In this document: positions 4,719 through 27,346 of the stretch, piece by piece | How the letters are laid out: each line of letters opens with the position of its first letter | Position numbering within the stretch: the stretch's first letter is position 1 | Assembly (NCBI GenBank): GCA_003583745.1 | Contig: QXPY01000005.1 | Span: 1-64,000 of the forward strand | Direction of reading: 5' to 3' | DNA from: Rhodocyclales bacterium GT-UBC | Lineage (GTDB): Bacteria; Pseudomonadota; Gammaproteobacteria; Burkholderiales; Rhodocyclaceae | DNA length: 64,000 bases | Program-made: the position numbers and the translations under genes | Notes under the pieces: model-generated | The model's input: the letters and a program-made list of their open reading frames with translations, nothing else | Databases searched by the model: none | What the model was told of the DNA's origin: nothing

Positions 4719-5941
4719 CCGCCTTTCGCTACCGCGCGGTTGATCTCGACGGCAAGGAAATCAGCGGCATCCTCGAAGCCGATACCCTGCGCCTCGCCCG
4801 CCATCAATTGCGCGCCCGTTCGCTCTTTGCGCTCGATGTCAGCGCCAGTCGCGAACCGGCCGATGCCAGCCGCTCGCCGCGTCGCCACACCCTCGGCAAT
4901 GCCGAGCTCTGTCTGCTGACCCGGCAATGGGCGACACTGCTCGAAGCCGGCGTCCCGGTCGAACGCAGCTTGACCGCACTGGGCGAGCAATACGCCGAAA
5001 GCAGCGCGCGCCAGCCTGCTGGCATCCCGCTGCTGCTCGCCGCCATCCGCAGCGAACTGCTGGCCGGCCACCCCTTGCACGTCAGCCTGGCCCGCTTTCC
5101 GCAGACCTTCAGTCCGCTGTACCGGGCGCTGGTTGCCGCCGGCGAGCAAAGCGGCCAACTGGCCGGCGTCATGCTCCGCCTCGCCGACAACCTCGAAAGC
5201 AGCAGCGCCCTCCGGCAAAAGCTGATGCAGGCCCTGATCTACCCGGTACTCGTCTCGCTGGTCGCGCTCGCCGTCGTCATCGGCTTGATGACCTACGTCG
5301 TGCCGCAGGTCGTCGCCGTCTTCCAGCACGGCCAGCAGACGCTGCCCCTGCTTACCCGCTGGCTGATGGCCTGCAGCGACCTCCTGCGCGCCACCTGGCC
5401 GCTTTTACTGGGTCTCGCCGGACTCGCCCTGTGGGGAGGCCGGCGGGCCTGGCGCATTCCCGCCCTGCGCCATCGCCTGCAACTCCGCCTGATGAGCCTG
5501 CCGGCCGTCGGACGCCTGCTGGTCAGCCTGGACAGCGCCCGCCTGGCGCAAACCCTGTCCATCCTGGTCGGCAGCGGCGTCCCCCTGCTCGCCGCCCTCG
5601 AAGCCGGTCCGGCGGTGATCTGGCTGATGCCGCTCAAGGTCGCCGTCGGCAATGCCATCACCGCCATCGGCGAAGGCCTGCCGCTGAGCAAGGCCCTGGG
5701 CCGCGAACAGGTTTTTCCGCCTTTCCTCATCCACATGATCGCCAGCGGCGAAAACAGCGGCCGCCTCGATCCGATGCTGGCCAAGGCAGCCCACCAGCAA
5801 CAACAGGAAGTCAGCAACCGCCTGGCCGTCTTCATGAGCCTGCTCGAACCGCTGCTCATCCTGAGCATGGGCCTCGTCGTCCTGGTCATTGTCCTGGCCA
5901 TCCTGCAACCGATCGTCGAAATCAACCAACTCGTCCGTTAA
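4715..5941 (+). CDS. gspF: type II secretion inner-membrane platform protein GspF
   Basis: Polytopic platform protein that couples GspE to pseudopilin assembly. The 408 residues contain the two tandem T2SSF domains (about 70-195 and 272-395), each followed by hydrophobic segments; the last is near the C-terminus. It starts at ATG inside the gspE stop (ATGA). Confidence 0.96.
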
Positions 5942-22556: not shown

Positions 22557-22571
22557 TGCTGCATCGCAGCA
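22557..22571 (+). promoter_or_regulatory. palindromic operator before fabI
   Basis: TGCTGC-ATC-GCAGCA, a perfect 6-3-6 inverted repeat 33 bp before fabI. The same element occurs at 24673-24687. It contains CTGC-N3-GCAG, described for the PHB regulator PhaR of Paracoccus. A partial copy, TGCACTGCAG, lies at 22507-22516. Confidence 0.5.
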
Positions 22572-22604: not shown

Positions 22605-23408
22605 ATGAACCAGAATCCAGAGCAAAACTCCACGGCAACCCCGCTTCTCCCGCTTGCCGGCAAGAAGGGACTGATCACCGGCGTCGCCAACGACAAGTCG
22701 ATCGCTTATGCCGTCGCCAAGGCAATTCGCGCCCTCGGCGGTGAAATCGCCCTGACCTATCAGAACGACAAGACCGCCAAATACACCCAGCCGCTGGCCG
22801 AAGCCCTCGGCGCCAAGCTCTTTCTCAAGCTCGACGTTACCGAAGAGGGTAGTCTGGAAGCTGCCGTCGCCCAGTGTGGCAACGAATTCGGCGAAATCGA
22901 CTTCGCCATCCATTCGATGGCATTCTGCAACGGCGACGACTTGCACGGCCGTGTCATCGATACCACCGAAGCCGGCTTCGACTCGGCGATGAACATTTCC
23001 TGCCACAGCTTCCTGCGCATGGCCAAGGCCCTGGAGCCGTTGATGGCCCACGGCGGTTCGCTGATCACCATGTCCTACCTCGGTGCCGAACGCGTCGTCC
23101 GCAACTACGGCGTCATGGGCATCATCAAGGCGGCGCTCGAATCGGCCGTCCGTTACATGGCTTACGACCTCGGCCCCAAGGGCATCCGCGTCTTCGCCGT
23201 TTCGCCCGGCCCGATCATGACCCGCGCCGCCTCCGGCATCGCCAACTTCAACACGCTGCTCGAGAACGATGCCGCCAAGGCCCCGCTCGGCCGCACCGTC
23301 ACCATCGATGAAGTCGGCGCCCTGACCGCCTTCCTGTGCACCCCGGGCTCTTCCGGGATGACCGGCCAGACGATCTTCGTCGACGCCGGCGCCCACATCG
23401 TCGCCTAA
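22605..23408 (+). CDS. fabI: enoyl-[acyl-carrier-protein] reductase FabI
   Basis: A 267-residue short-chain dehydrogenase-like enzyme that reduces enoyl-ACP with NAD(P)H in the last step of fatty-acid elongation. It has the cofactor region GLITGVANDKSIAYA, SMAF and the catalytic SYLGAERVVRNYGVMGIIKAALE with the Tyr-x6-Lys pair. Length and motifs match FabI (triclosan-target class). It stands at the head of a cluster with maoC-pta and ackA, which suggests a metabolic link to acyl-CoA/acetyl-P turnover; a second fabI elsewhere cannot be excluded. Confidence 0.93.
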   Translation: MNQNPEQNSTATPLLPLAGKKGLITGVANDKSIAYAVAKAIRALGGEIALTYQNDKTAKYTQPLAEALGAKLFLKLDVTEEGSLEAAVAQCGNEFGEIDFAIHSMAFCNGDDLHGRVIDTTEAGFDSAMNISCHSFLRMAKALEPLMAHGGSLITMSYLGAERVVRNYGVMGIIKAALESAVRYMAYDLGPKGIRVFAVSPGPIMTRAASGIANFNTLLENDAAKAPLGRTVTIDEVGALTAFLCTPGSSGMTGQTIFVDAGAHIVA

Positions 23409-23421
23409 GGCAGTGCCCGCC

Positions 23422-23452
23422 CCTCCCCGGCACCGCAACGGCGCCGGGGAGG
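23422..23452 (+). terminator. strong GC hairpin after fabI
   Basis: A perfect 10-bp stem CCTCCCCGGC/GCCGGGGAGG with an 11-nt loop, 13 bp after fabI. It has no T tract, so it may attenuate rather than end transcription into the next pair of genes. Confidence 0.4.
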
Positions 23453-23480: not shown

Positions 23481-24059
23481 ATGCAAATCGACAGCAGCCT
23501 GCTCATACCCGACCCGGTTCCCGACCACCCCCTACTCCGGGGCAGAAAGGAAATCGGCCGCGGCGAAAACACCATCGTGCTCGACGGCGATGTCGTCGAT
23601 GGTCAGGAACGGGTGTTCAAGGTCCTCTCCTCCCCGACCGACTATGCGTACTACACGGCCCCTGACCGGCCAACCGGCAGCCACTTTCCGGTCGTATTCG
23701 CCGATCACGGTACCGCCGGACGCTCCAGCCGCGGTTTTCCCTTCCACATCGTCGAAGTCGAAAAACTCTATCCGCTTCCTGGTGGCTGCGATGCGGCCGA
23801 AGTTGCAACCAAGATTTCGACGTCCTACTTCGAAGCCTGCCAAGCCTGGCGCAACCTTGCCCAGGATATGGGCCGTATCGCCCTGCATCACTTGGTGGTC
23901 TCGCCCATGGGCTGGAGCGACGCGCTACGTCAATCGCTCAAGGCGCTCGAAGAGTTTTCCACCGAGTATGGCGCCCTCCCCGACCTGATCAAGGCCGACA
24001 ACCTGATGATGCGCAAGGACGGCACCCTGGTTTTTTCCGATCCGGTATTCATGGAATGA
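23481..24059 (+). CDS. kinase-fold-like protein of unknown function
   Basis: A 192-residue soluble protein without a named family that I recognise. It reads like a compact, atypical protein-kinase fold: a glycine-rich loop IGRGENTIVL (25-34), a VAIK-like lysine in RVFKVL (K47), a hinge-like HIVEVEKLYPL (89-99), a catalytic-loop-like DLIKADNLMMR (D168, N174) and a DFG-like FSDPVF (D187). The Asp-to-Asn spacing in the catalytic loop is one residue longer than in HRDLKPEN, so activity is uncertain. The start has GGAG 8 bp upstream. It overlaps the next gene, a dual-specificity phosphatase, by 4 bp, so the two are probably coupled. The fold call is inference from motifs. Confidence 0.6.
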   Translation: MQIDSSLLIPDPVPDHPLLRGRKEIGRGENTIVLDGDVVDGQERVFKVLSSPTDYAYYTAPDRPTGSHFPVVFADHGTAGRSSRGFPFHIVEVEKLYPLPGGCDAAEVATKISTSYFEACQAWRNLAQDMGRIALHHLVVSPMGWSDALRQSLKALEEFSTEYGALPDLIKADNLMMRKDGTLVFSDPVFME

Positions 24060-24544
24060 CGATCAAACAAGTTTTCTTTGCCTCGCGGGAACTGGCTGAA
24101 TCGCTAGCCGGGAACCCCTACATGGCGGTCATCTCGATTACCGATCCGGGCACCCCGGAAGCGCGGCTCGACCCGGCCTTCCGCCACGTCTTGCGACTTT
24201 CCTTTTACGACGCGGTGCCGGCCGACGAATTCATGCCAGCGCCGTTTCCCGGCCTGTTCGATCACCATATGGCAAAGCAGATCGGCGACTTCGTCGGGGA
24301 ACTGCATGCTGCCCCCTTCGAAATCTCGATGATGGTGCATTGCGAATACGGTGTCAGCCGCTCGGCCGCCGTCGCACTCTATGTCGAAGCCCGTTGCGGC
24401 GCCCCGCTGTCGGCACGCGAGTTCACCTATGAAGCCAACCAGTGGGTTGTCTGCCAACTGGAACAGATTGACCCCGGACTGGAATTGGAGATCCCGCCCA
24501 AAAATACGGTACACGACCGCCGGCAACAACAGCGTTCAAACTGA
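24056..24544 (+). CDS. dual-specificity/tyrosine phosphatase-like protein
   Basis: A 162-residue cytoplasmic protein with the complete cysteine-phosphatase signature HCEYGVSRS (H95, C96, R102), including the Gly three residues after Cys that is typical of dual-specificity enzymes. Candidate general-acid aspartates lie at 52 and 57 (FYDAVPADEF). The N-terminal VISITDPGTPEA strand pattern resembles small phage and bacterial phosphatase-like proteins. ATGA overlap with the kinase-like gene implies a functional pair. Substrate unknown; neighbours are lipid and acetyl-P enzymes. Confidence 0.75.
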   Translation: MTIKQVFFASRELAESLAGNPYMAVISITDPGTPEARLDPAFRHVLRLSFYDAVPADEFMPAPFPGLFDHHMAKQIGDFVGELHAAPFEISMMVHCEYGVSRSAAVALYVEARCGAPLSAREFTYEANQWVVCQLEQIDPGLELEIPPKNTVHDRRQQQRSN

Positions 24545-24667: not shown

Positions 24668-24696
24668 TTGTTTGCTGCGACGCAGCACACTATACT
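24668..24696 (+). promoter_or_regulatory. promoter of maoC-pta with embedded palindrome
   Basis: -35 TTGTTT (24668-24673), 17-bp spacer, -10 TATACT (24691-24696). The spacer holds TGCTGC-GAC-GCAGCA (24673-24687), the same palindrome as before fabI, placed where a bound repressor would block polymerase. Confidence 0.6.
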
Positions 24697-24744: not shown

Positions 24745-26163
24745 ATGCAAGAGCGTAGCGAACAACGTTTTCTCGTCAATAAAACCTACGACGAGATCCA
24801 GATCGGCGACTCCTCGACCCTGACCCGCACCCTGGCCCCAGAAGACGTCAAGCTTTTCGCCATCCTGACCGGCGACATCAACCCGGCGGTGATCGATCCG
24901 GAATATTCCGAAAGCGGTCTCTTCCGCGAAGTCATCGCCCACGGCATGTGGAGCGGTTCGCTGATCTCGACCGTACTCGGCACCCAGTTCCCTGGCCCGG
25001 GCACCATCCTGATTGATCAGACGCTGCATTTTGCGCGTCCGGTCACCATCGGCGATACGATCACCATCACTGTCACCGCCAAGCAGAAGTTCGACCACAA
25101 CAAGCACATCATCCTCGATTGCGTCTGCACCAACCAGGAAGGCCTGCAAGTTGTCCGGGGCACGGCCGAGATCCTGGCGCCGGTTGAAAAAATCTCGCAC
25201 CTGCAAGCCGTCCACATGCCCTCCATCCGCATCGATGACAAGCATGAGCGCTATAAACACCTGCTGTCGCGCGTCAAGGGACTGGAACCGATTCCCACCG
25301 CAGTCGCCCACCCCTGCGACCGCGAGTCGCTCAAAGGACCGGTCATTGCCTTCCAGGAAGGCATCATCGAACCGATCCTGGTCGGCCCGGAATCGAAGAT
25401 TCGTTCGGTTGCCGAAGAATTCAACATCGACCTGCACGGCATCCGCATCGTTAACGCCGCCCATAGCCACGACTCGGCTGCGATGGCCGTCTCCCTGGTC
25501 CGCACCGGCGACGCCGAGGCCCTGATGAAGGGCAGCCTGCATACCGACGAACTGATGGGCGAAGTGGTTTCCCGCGCCAACGGCCTGCGCACTTCCCGCC
25601 GGATCAGCCACGTTTTCCTGATGGACGTCCCGACCTATCACCGGCCCCTGCTGATCACCGATGCCGCGATCAACATCGCACCGGGTCTGGAAGAGAAGGT
25701 CGACATCATCCAGAACGCCATCGACCTCGCCCACATCATCGGTATCCCGGAACCCAAGGTCGCCATCCTGTCGGCGGTCGAGACCGTCAATCCGAAAATC
25801 CAGTCCACCCTCGATGCTGCCGCTCTCTGCAAGATGGCGGACCGCGGCCAGATCCGGGGCGGCATACTGGACGGCCCGCTGGCTTTCGACAACGCCGTTT
25901 CCATCGTTGCCGCCAAGACCAAGGGCATCAAGTCGGCCGTCGCCGGCCATGCCGAAATCCTCGTCGTTCCCGACCTGGAGTCCGGCAACATGGTGGCCAA
26001 GCAACTTGAGTACCTCGCCAACGCCCTGACTGCCGGCATCGTGCTGGGCACCCGGGTTCCCATCGTGCTGACCAGCCGCGCTGACTCGGCCGAAACACGC
26101 ACGGCATCCTGCGTCATCGCGGCGCTGATTGCCCACGCCAACCGTAACAAAGGAAACGCCTGA
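24745..26163 (+). CDS. bifunctional enoyl-CoA hydratase/phosphate acetyltransferase
   Basis: A 472-residue fusion protein. Residues about 10-150 are a MaoC-type hot-dog domain with the hydratase motif LTGDINPAVID...FREVIAHGMWSGSL (Asp and His catalytic pair). Residues about 170-470 are a phosphate acetyl/butyryltransferase domain ending in LTSRADSAETRTASC. It links acyl-CoA to acyl-phosphate for the adjacent acetate kinase. This fusion beside ackA and fabI is a known arrangement in Betaproteobacteria. It starts at ATG 24745 with GGGGAG and AAAGGA upstream. Confidence 0.93.
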   Translation: MQERSEQRFLVNKTYDEIQIGDSSTLTRTLAPEDVKLFAILTGDINPAVIDPEYSESGLFREVIAHGMWSGSLISTVLGTQFPGPGTILIDQTLHFARPVTIGDTITITVTAKQKFDHNKHIILDCVCTNQEGLQVVRGTAEILAPVEKISHLQAVHMPSIRIDDKHERYKHLLSRVKGLEPIPTAVAHPCDRESLKGPVIAFQEGIIEPILVGPESKIRSVAEEFNIDLHGIRIVNAAHSHDSAAMAVSLVRTGDAEALMKGSLHTDELMGEVVSRANGLRTSRRISHVFLMDVPTYHRPLLITDAAINIAPGLEEKVDIIQNAIDLAHIIGIPEPKVAILSAVETVNPKIQSTLDAAALCKMADRGQIRGGILDGPLAFDNAVSIVAAKTKGIKSAVAGHAEILVVPDLESGNMVAKQLEYLANALTAGIVLGTRVPIVLTSRADSAETRTASCVIAALIAHANRNKGNA

Positions 26164-26164
26164 C

Positions 26165-27346
26165 ATGAAACAGGGCATTCTCACCATCAACGCCGGCTCG
26201 TCGTCGATCAAGTTCGCGCTCTTCTCGCTGGCCCATCCCATTTCACCAGAAGCCGAAGTTTCTGGCCAAATCGACGGCATTGGTGCCGAAACCACCAAGC
26301 TGATCGCCAAGAATCGTGCCGGCGAACGCATCACCGACCAGGTTCTGAGCGGCGAACGCGTCAGCCATGATCAATCCTTCGCTGCGCTGCTCAACTGGTT
26401 CACTGCCAGTCACGCCGACTGGGAAATCGTGGCGGTTGGCCACCGTGTCGTGCATGGCGGAGATCGCTATTCGCAGCCGACAGTGATCGATGAACAAGTG
26501 CTGGCTCATCTCACCGGCTTTACACCGCTGGCTCCGCTGCATCAGCCGCACAACGTCGCCGGCATCCTGGCGCTCCAGGCCTTGCTGCCCAGCGTGCCGC
26601 AAGTCGCCTGCTTCGACACCGCCTTCCACCGCAGCCAACCGGACGTCGCCCAGATCTTCGGCCTGCCGCGCTCGATCACCGCCGAAGGCGTCAAGCGCTA
26701 CGGTTTCCACGGCCTTTCCTACGAGTACATCGCCCGCGCCTTGCCGCAGCATTCACGTCGCGCCGAAGGCCGCGTCGTCGTCGCCCACCTCGGCAACGGT
26801 GCCAGCATGGCGGCCATGGTCAATCGCAAATGCGTCGCCACGACGCTCGGCTTCTCGACCATCGACGGCCTGGTCATGGGCACCCGCGTCGGCAACCTCG
26901 ACCCTGGCGTCATTCTTCACCTGATGGAAACCAAGGGCCTCAGCGTCAAGGACATGACCAAGATGCTCTACAAGGAATCCGGTCTGCTCGGCGTATCCGG
27001 CATCAGCCAGGATATGCGCACCCTGCTCTCCAGCGACAAGCCGGAAGCCCAGGAAGCGGTCAATCTGTTCTGCTACCGCATCGCCCGCGAACTCGGCTCG
27101 CTGGCTGCCGCGGCCGGCGGTCTCGATGCCGTGGTCTTCACCGGCGGCATCGGCGAACATGCCGCCGAGGTTCGCCGCCGCGTCTGCCTGCTCTCCGAAT
27201 GGCTCGGCATCCGCCTCAATCCGGAAGCCAATGCCCGCCACGACCTGCATATTGCAGCCGGCAACAGCAGCGTCGACGTGCTGGTCATCCCGACCAACGA
27301 AGAGTGGATGATGGCTCACCACGCCCAAACCCTGCTCGCCCTTTAA
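26165..27346 (+). CDS. ackA: acetate kinase
   Basis: A 393-residue ASKHA-fold kinase that interconverts acetyl-phosphate plus ADP and acetate plus ATP. It shows LTINAGSSSIKF (phosphate 1), GHRVVHGG, FDTAFH, YGFHGLSYEY, HLGNGASM and FTGGIGEHA. The ATG at 26165 is one base after the pta stop; an upstream in-frame extension inside pta is implausible. It forms an acetate-producing or acetate-assimilating pair with the upstream gene. Confidence 0.96.
   Translation: MKQGILTINAGSSSIKFALFSLAHPISPEAEVSGQIDGIGAETTKLIAKNRAGERITDQVLSGERVSHDQSFAALLNWFTASHADWEIVAVGHRVVHGGDRYSQPTVIDEQVLAHLTGFTPLAPLHQPHNVAGILALQALLPSVPQVACFDTAFHRSQPDVAQIFGLPRSITAEGVKRYGFHGLSYEYIARALPQHSRRAEGRVVVAHLGNGASMAAMVNRKCVATTLGFSTIDGLVMGTRVGNLDPGVILHLMETKGLSVKDMTKMLYKESGLLGVSGISQDMRTLLSSDKPEAQEAVNLFCYRIARELGSLAAAAGGLDAVVFTGGIGEHAAEVRRRVCLLSEWLGIRLNPEANARHDLHIAAGNSSVDVLVIPTNEEWMMAHHAQTLLAL

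Follow-up and report, generated by a model that had tools for sequence, protein, structure and literature searches.

The window analyzed here is a stretch of 64,000 nucleotides (positions 1 to 64,000 of the forward strand of contig QXPY01000005.1) from Rhodocyclales bacterium GT-UBC (assembly GCA_003583745.1). Within it, two small genes, here called K and DSP, lie between fabI, which encodes an enoyl-acyl carrier protein (ACP) reductase, and a maoC-pta-ackA cluster (Table 1). The initial annotation of the window had placed the pair in this way, and identification of the neighbors by Pfam bears it out, as the list of open reading frames (ORFs) does for the ATGA shared by the two genes. It should be noted that this overlap is atypical: among 60 loci with both genes, the two overlap in 10, are separated by a gap of 0–30 bp in 33, and by a longer gap in 17.

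K and DSP are real genes, because homologs at E ≤ 1e-3 exist for both (508 of 606 candidates for K and 487 of 580 for DSP; the homologs listed are the best 120 for each) and both are under purifying selection. The ratio pN/pS is 0.13–0.24 for K and 0.27–0.34 for DSP (four pairs in each case), indicating weaker constraint on DSP than on K.

Table 1. Features of the fabI2-K-DSP locus (positions in the window)
Feature	Position	Strand	Basis
K	23481..24059	+	ATG ORF, 192 aa; phage-type minimal kinase fold
DSP	24056..24544	+	162 aa; dual-specificity-phosphatase-like, C96-x5-R102
fabI2, second enoyl-ACP reductase paralog	22605..23408	+	Pfam PF13561; two FabI copies in the genome; tree
maoC-pta fusion (MaoC dehydratase plus phosphate acetyl/butyryltransferase)	24745..26163	+	Pfam PF01575, PF01515
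ackA, acetate kinase	26165..27346	+	Pfam PF00871
Palindrome TGCTGCATCGCAGCA upstream of fabI, candidate PhaR-type operator	22557..22571		Motif search
Palindrome TGCTGCGACGCAGCA upstream of maoC-pta, candidate PhaR-type operator	24673..24687		Motif search
Hairpin between fabI and K	23422..23452		14-bp arms, 93% complementary, no T run, z −2.28

K has a minimal kinase fold related to small phage kinases

The structure model of K (predicted local distance difference test score, pLDDT, of 91) has a kinase fold, which fold searches support, and the landmark residues reported in the initial annotation are all in place (IGRGENTIVL at 25–34, K47, D168, N174, and FSDP at 185–188). K47, D168, N174, and D187 are invariant in an alignment of 30 sequences that reaches down to 51% identity, as are G26, R27, G28, and E29, so the Gly-rich loop and the β3 Lys of protein kinases are both present. 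D187 of the SDP motif corresponds to the metal-binding DFG Asp; residue 192 aligns at CDK2 150 and PKR 437, which by the numbering of those kinases places D187 on that Asp. The remainder departs from a eukaryotic-like protein kinase. The canonical catalytic loop is D-x4-N, one residue shorter than the D168-x5-N174 of K, and the chain stops at residue 192, five residues past D187, where a full C-lobe (activation segment and later helices) would follow.

K has no match in Pfam or NCBIfam, and its profile finds none among PDB sequences at E ≤ 10. By fold, it is nearest to phrog_3809-type small kinases of phages, several of the phage fold relatives being annotated as kinases, and the top PDB matches include the aminoglycoside phosphotransferases (APH) APH(4)-Ia and APH(2'')-Ia, with E-values near those of protein kinases. 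The phrog_3809 hidden Markov model (HMM) matches K at 6.6e-9 (residues 86–189 only), a Thauera homolog at 1.5e-13, and the Plasticicumulans K at 1.7e-11. Over its whole length, K matches the fold of entry U5PZN2 of Acinetobacter phage Presley (E 2.6e-8, TMq 0.60, 191 columns), which, to judge from its length (212 aa) and the phage, is probably Presley_35, a protein that itself matches the phrog_3809 HMM at 5e-5. By sequence alone, the K profile has no significant match to Presley_35 (E 0.14).

Among the phrog_3809 phage proteins, Presley_35 shares with K the whole-length fold, the family HMM, the unusual D-x5-N loop, and an end soon after the SDP/LDP motif; unlike these proteins, K is chromosomal and kept behind fabI. 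The T7 Ser/Thr kinase gp0.7 (phrog_2828/15752) resembles K in its Asp loop, its TDP/SDP motif, and the 13 residues from the Asn to the DFG-like Asp, but it has D-x4-N (the D168-to-N174 spacing of 6 in K is one more) and 359 aa; the phrog_15752 HMM matches K weakly (0.049) and the Thauera homolog at 2.6e-5. In the best explanation, K shares ancestry with phrog_3809-type small phage kinases and is a small Ser/Thr-type kinase.

DSP is a phosphatase-like protein of phage and plasmid type

For DSP, the structure model and fold search give the fold of dual-specificity phosphatases (DUSPs), as the initial annotation had proposed. The signature H-C-x5-R-S/T is complete (HCEYGVSRS, with the Cys at C96), and H95, C96, R102, and S103 are invariant in 22 sequences. 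Set against known DUSPs, DSP falls below the curated cutoff of Pfam DSPc (17.8 of 33.5 bits) and is closer to the phage and plasmid proteins of phrog_5614 (7e-18). D52, D57, and D69 are invariant candidates for the general acid, but residues 57–60 have a pLDDT <50.

K is tied to fabI, and DSP is a lineage-specific addition

The distribution of K was surveyed in 150 genomes drawn once from the family, in 63 close loci (K at least 73% identical), and in 274 genomes drawn from the class. By direct protein search, 42 of the 150 family genomes carry K. Comparison of coordinates puts fabI immediately before K, in the same orientation, in 36 of these, the other six being G288, G312, G349, G363, G369, and G407. 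An adjacent DSP is present in nine, exactly those with K at least 81% identical (the Azonexaceae type), and the other 33, with K at 51%–61% identity (named homologs of this kind come from Thauera, Azoarcus, and Aromatoleum), have no DSP match at E ≤ 1e-3. A constant K-DSP pair is therefore rejected. The co-occurrence implied by the initial annotation is nearly constant in close relatives, where DSP follows K in 60 of 63 loci, but does not extend to the family as a whole.

In the same 63 loci, fabI precedes K in 58, whereas pta lies downstream in 49 and beyond fabI, on its far side, in four; in the other 10, the fetched stretch has no pta. Several of these stretches end at contig ends (e.g., L054, L058, L061, L063), and thus the missing neighbors are partly a matter of truncation. 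Two stretches, L056 (from a Rhodoferax metagenome-assembled genome) and L057 (Plasticicumulans), are uncut and have neither fabI nor DSP by K. In L057, from Plasticicumulans acidivorans, K (5001–5576) is 73% identical; this organism is a strong accumulator of polyhydroxybutyrate (PHB). These two loci show that K also occurs sporadically elsewhere, and the class draw yielded K in the genome of the window and in none of the 273 others. The phrog_3809 HMM is insensitive here, because it found only three of 250 genomes in a draw from the order, all of the window's own genus, compared with 42 of 150 by direct protein search.

Of the 33 loci of the Thauera/Azoarcus type, 29 were fetched, and fabI lies 53–162 bp upstream of K in 24. 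The stretch of L080 ends short of fabI, yet fabI is there by coordinates; L095–L098 lack fabI beside K. Those four come from two genera with genomes of 2.2–2.4 Mb, in which K is away from fabI and FabI2 was undetected. pta is nearby in one of the 29 (L089). A divergent HAD_SAK_2 gene (PF18143) sits upstream of fabI on the opposite strand in 23 of the 29 (L075–L103); in the window, a NuoE/F-like gene takes its place.

K keeps fabI as a neighbor more constantly than pta or DSP. The idea that K is tied to pta-ackA, its neighbors in the initial annotation, is rejected on the close loci in which pta is beyond fabI (four) or outside the fetched stretch (10). The unit conserved more broadly is fabI2-K, with DSP as a lineage-specific addition.

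The adjoining fabI is a second paralog

A tree of 80 rows separates 14 FabI rows that we label canonical type from 66 FabI2 rows with a support of 100. Counted by a cutoff of our own, at least 240 bits to the FabI of the window, FabI2 occurs in 70 of the 150 family genomes, and K is found in 36 of these 70 compared with six of the 80 without FabI2, an association that is uncorrected for kinship and is mostly the fabI-K linkage itself.

Twenty FabI2 loci without K were fetched, including L190 (G335 C7:64602-65354), the third, FabI2-type FabI of one congener, whose genome bears K beside another copy. maoC-pta was found in 14 of the 20, and in 10 it follows fabI directly on the same strand after a gap of 19–82 bp, with ackA present in eight of these 10. 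The window differs from this arrangement in having K and DSP between fabI and maoC-pta, so in the Azonexaceae type K-DSP looks like an insertion into this module, while the Thauera/Azoarcus type retains fabI-K.

How often K was joined to fabI depends on the tree. A quick tree (80 rows) places the two K-linked FabI groups in separate clades, each supported; a more careful one (58 of the 80 rows, without the two long branches L177 and L189, near-copies, and the majority of the canonical type) joins them with a support of 80/95.9, a grouping that the tool scores as neither shown nor rejected. One or two captures may have occurred; we considered two independent captures and do not claim them.

Some positions of FabI2 may set the K-linked proteins apart. 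The two K-linked groups of FabI2 (10 and 24 rows) both carry Ser/Thr at the positions of T25, T57, T79, S83, T120, and T241 of the window FabI, compared with less than half of the 20 K-less FabI2 rows. Such sites make up six of 20 conserved Ser/Thr columns versus 11 of the remaining 143 (Fisher p 0.008, a post hoc comparison uncorrected for shared descent, in which the two groups may be one clade), and most canonical FabI rows have T25 as well. We take the pattern as a hint that FabI2 may be the first candidate substrate, no more.

A palindrome shared with phasin genes

The palindrome TGCTGC(N3)GCAGCA occurs on both sides of the pair, as the initial annotation had stated. In its 20-base form it has two matches in the window (with zero and three mismatches), compared with a mean of 0.00 in 100 shuffles. 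Three phasin genes in this genome (C9:235814, C9:161505, C5:156153) also have sites of this type, 44–70 bp upstream. The motif is not exclusive to phasins: 10 hand-picked stretches hold 12 sites, of which three precede phasins and nine are in or near other genes, and the pattern is frequent in the genome (160 forward places with no more than two mismatches vs. 41 for the reversed control).

In the 300 bp preceding fabI, a best site with no more than two mismatches is present at 53 of 55 close, 16 of 24 Thauera/Azoarcus-type, and seven of 20 K-less loci, compared with a rate of 0.6%–1.4% in single-base shuffles (20 per locus). Upstream of maoC-pta, such sites were found at 26 of 53 close loci, none of one of the Thauera/Azoarcus type, and three of 13 K-less loci. 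At six loci without a preceding fabI (L056, L057, and L095–L098), no palindrome with up to two mismatches was found in the 400 bp upstream of K.

The genome encodes a PhaR homolog (PF07879, 102 bits, contig C13). Passages of two papers describe PhaR sites as TGC-rich (PMC3570403, PMC10888616), and in the latter a phaR mutant of Bradyrhizobium is described as showing strong induction of pta and of two ackA genes. Because three phasin genes, and fabI2 in many relatives, have the palindrome upstream as well, the fabI2-K unit probably belongs to the PhaR/PHB regulon, with PhaR control predicted from these sites.

The region between fabI and K forms a stable fold (z ≤ −2) in 29 of 59 close regions, the window included, versus two of 24 of the Thauera/Azoarcus type. 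The stable folds of the close loci differ in sequence.

Interpretation and alternatives

The reading that we prefer, with a probability of roughly 0.4, is that K is a mini-kinase of phage type, that its target is FabI2 or a partner in acyl metabolism linked to PHB, and that DSP serves as a lineage-specific eraser. In part of the Rhodocyclaceae (in the sense of GTDB), a small Ser/Thr-type kinase would thus be encoded downstream from a second FabI whose gene is probably under PhaR control. K would be cotranscribed with fabI2 when PHB-related genes switch on, and would phosphorylate, and so tune, FabI2 or a close partner in the acyl/acetyl-phosphate module. In the Azonexaceae branch, the DUSP-type phosphatase directly behind K would probably reverse the modification. 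The initial annotation had proposed a writer/eraser pair acting in acyl/acetyl metabolism; the two folds and the metabolic link (through the second FabI and the palindrome common with phasin genes) stand, but the constancy of the pair does not. A more specific version, in which the mini-kinase was recruited as a dedicated regulator of FabI2 within the PhaR regulon, and one lineage added a DUSP to give a one-operon writer/eraser for a single enzyme, is in our estimate doubtful.

One alternative is that K is catalytically dead, or nearly so, and acts as a kinase-fold subunit that binds FabI2 or a nucleotide as an allosteric regulator, with DSP acting elsewhere. The unusual D-x5-N loop, the chain end right past the DFG-like Asp, and the dispensability of DSP would fit. 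However, a dead scaffold would not need the four catalytic-type residues that are invariant across the 30 sequences, and several phage relatives by fold carry kinase annotations. We consider this alternative unlikely.

It is also improbable, to a similar degree, that the linkage is by descent only, with K serving a housekeeping or stress function that does not involve FabI2 and having simply stayed adjacent. The single clade of K-linked FabI2 in the careful tree means that one ancestral event may suffice, and six of the 42 K genomes have no fabI beside K, but fabI-K is retained while the neighbors vary (pta-ackA may be downstream, beyond fabI, or missing; the HAD gene upstream only in the Thauera/Azoarcus type).

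Less probable still is a small-molecule kinase of the APH kind, whose substrate would be an acyl, pantetheine, or alcohol metabolite and not a protein. The APH structures among the top fold matches and the metabolic locus speak for it. APH enzymes bind their substrates through C-terminal helices, however, and K ends at the DFG position and so lacks them; in addition, phage protein kinases are among its closest matches to viral folds.

The initial annotation named a phage-derived pair as its main alternative. Both families have phage relatives (phrog_3809 for K, phrog_5614 for DSP), and relatives of DSP are found in 63 records of Pseudomonas phages and in 1087 of plasmids, 991 of which are conjugative. 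A tblastn search of 50,697 phage records gives no match for K itself, which also has none in the phage, plasmid, or viral collections searched, and neither annotation nor the K profile shows a kinase within 3 kb of the DSP relatives in phage JBD44 and a Variovorax plasmid. A phage origin fits the kinship of K with phage kinases by fold, but a phage-derived pair is disfavored. That K and DSP are recent phage-derived or defense cargo in incidental metabolic surroundings is very improbable, given in addition that the place beside fabI is conserved across genera and that, in the family draw, K without DSP is the commoner state.

In mycobacteria, the kinases that act on the enoyl-ACP reductase InhA are global Ser/Thr protein kinases. 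At the locus described here, the mini-kinase gene instead adjoins the second fabI, and modification of FabI2 is predicted. Regulation of InhA by phosphorylation through Ser/Thr kinases is described in a passage of PMC4014462.

Significance

A search with narrow terms in the open-licence literature found no published report of this system. Phage small kinases are known as tools of takeover, and a chromosomal relative kept by a fabI paralog would be a phage-type small kinase used in metabolism. A review passage notes phosphosites on the PHB synthase and depolymerase of Ralstonia and does not name the responsible kinase there (PMC7204398). A kinase and a phosphatase in an apparent PHB regulon would make such phosphorylation control testable by gene deletion. 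The presence of DSP beside K in one branch suggests, short of proof, reversible phosphorylation in acyl/PHB metabolism, and lineages with and without DSP provide a natural contrast between the kinase with its likely eraser and the kinase alone.
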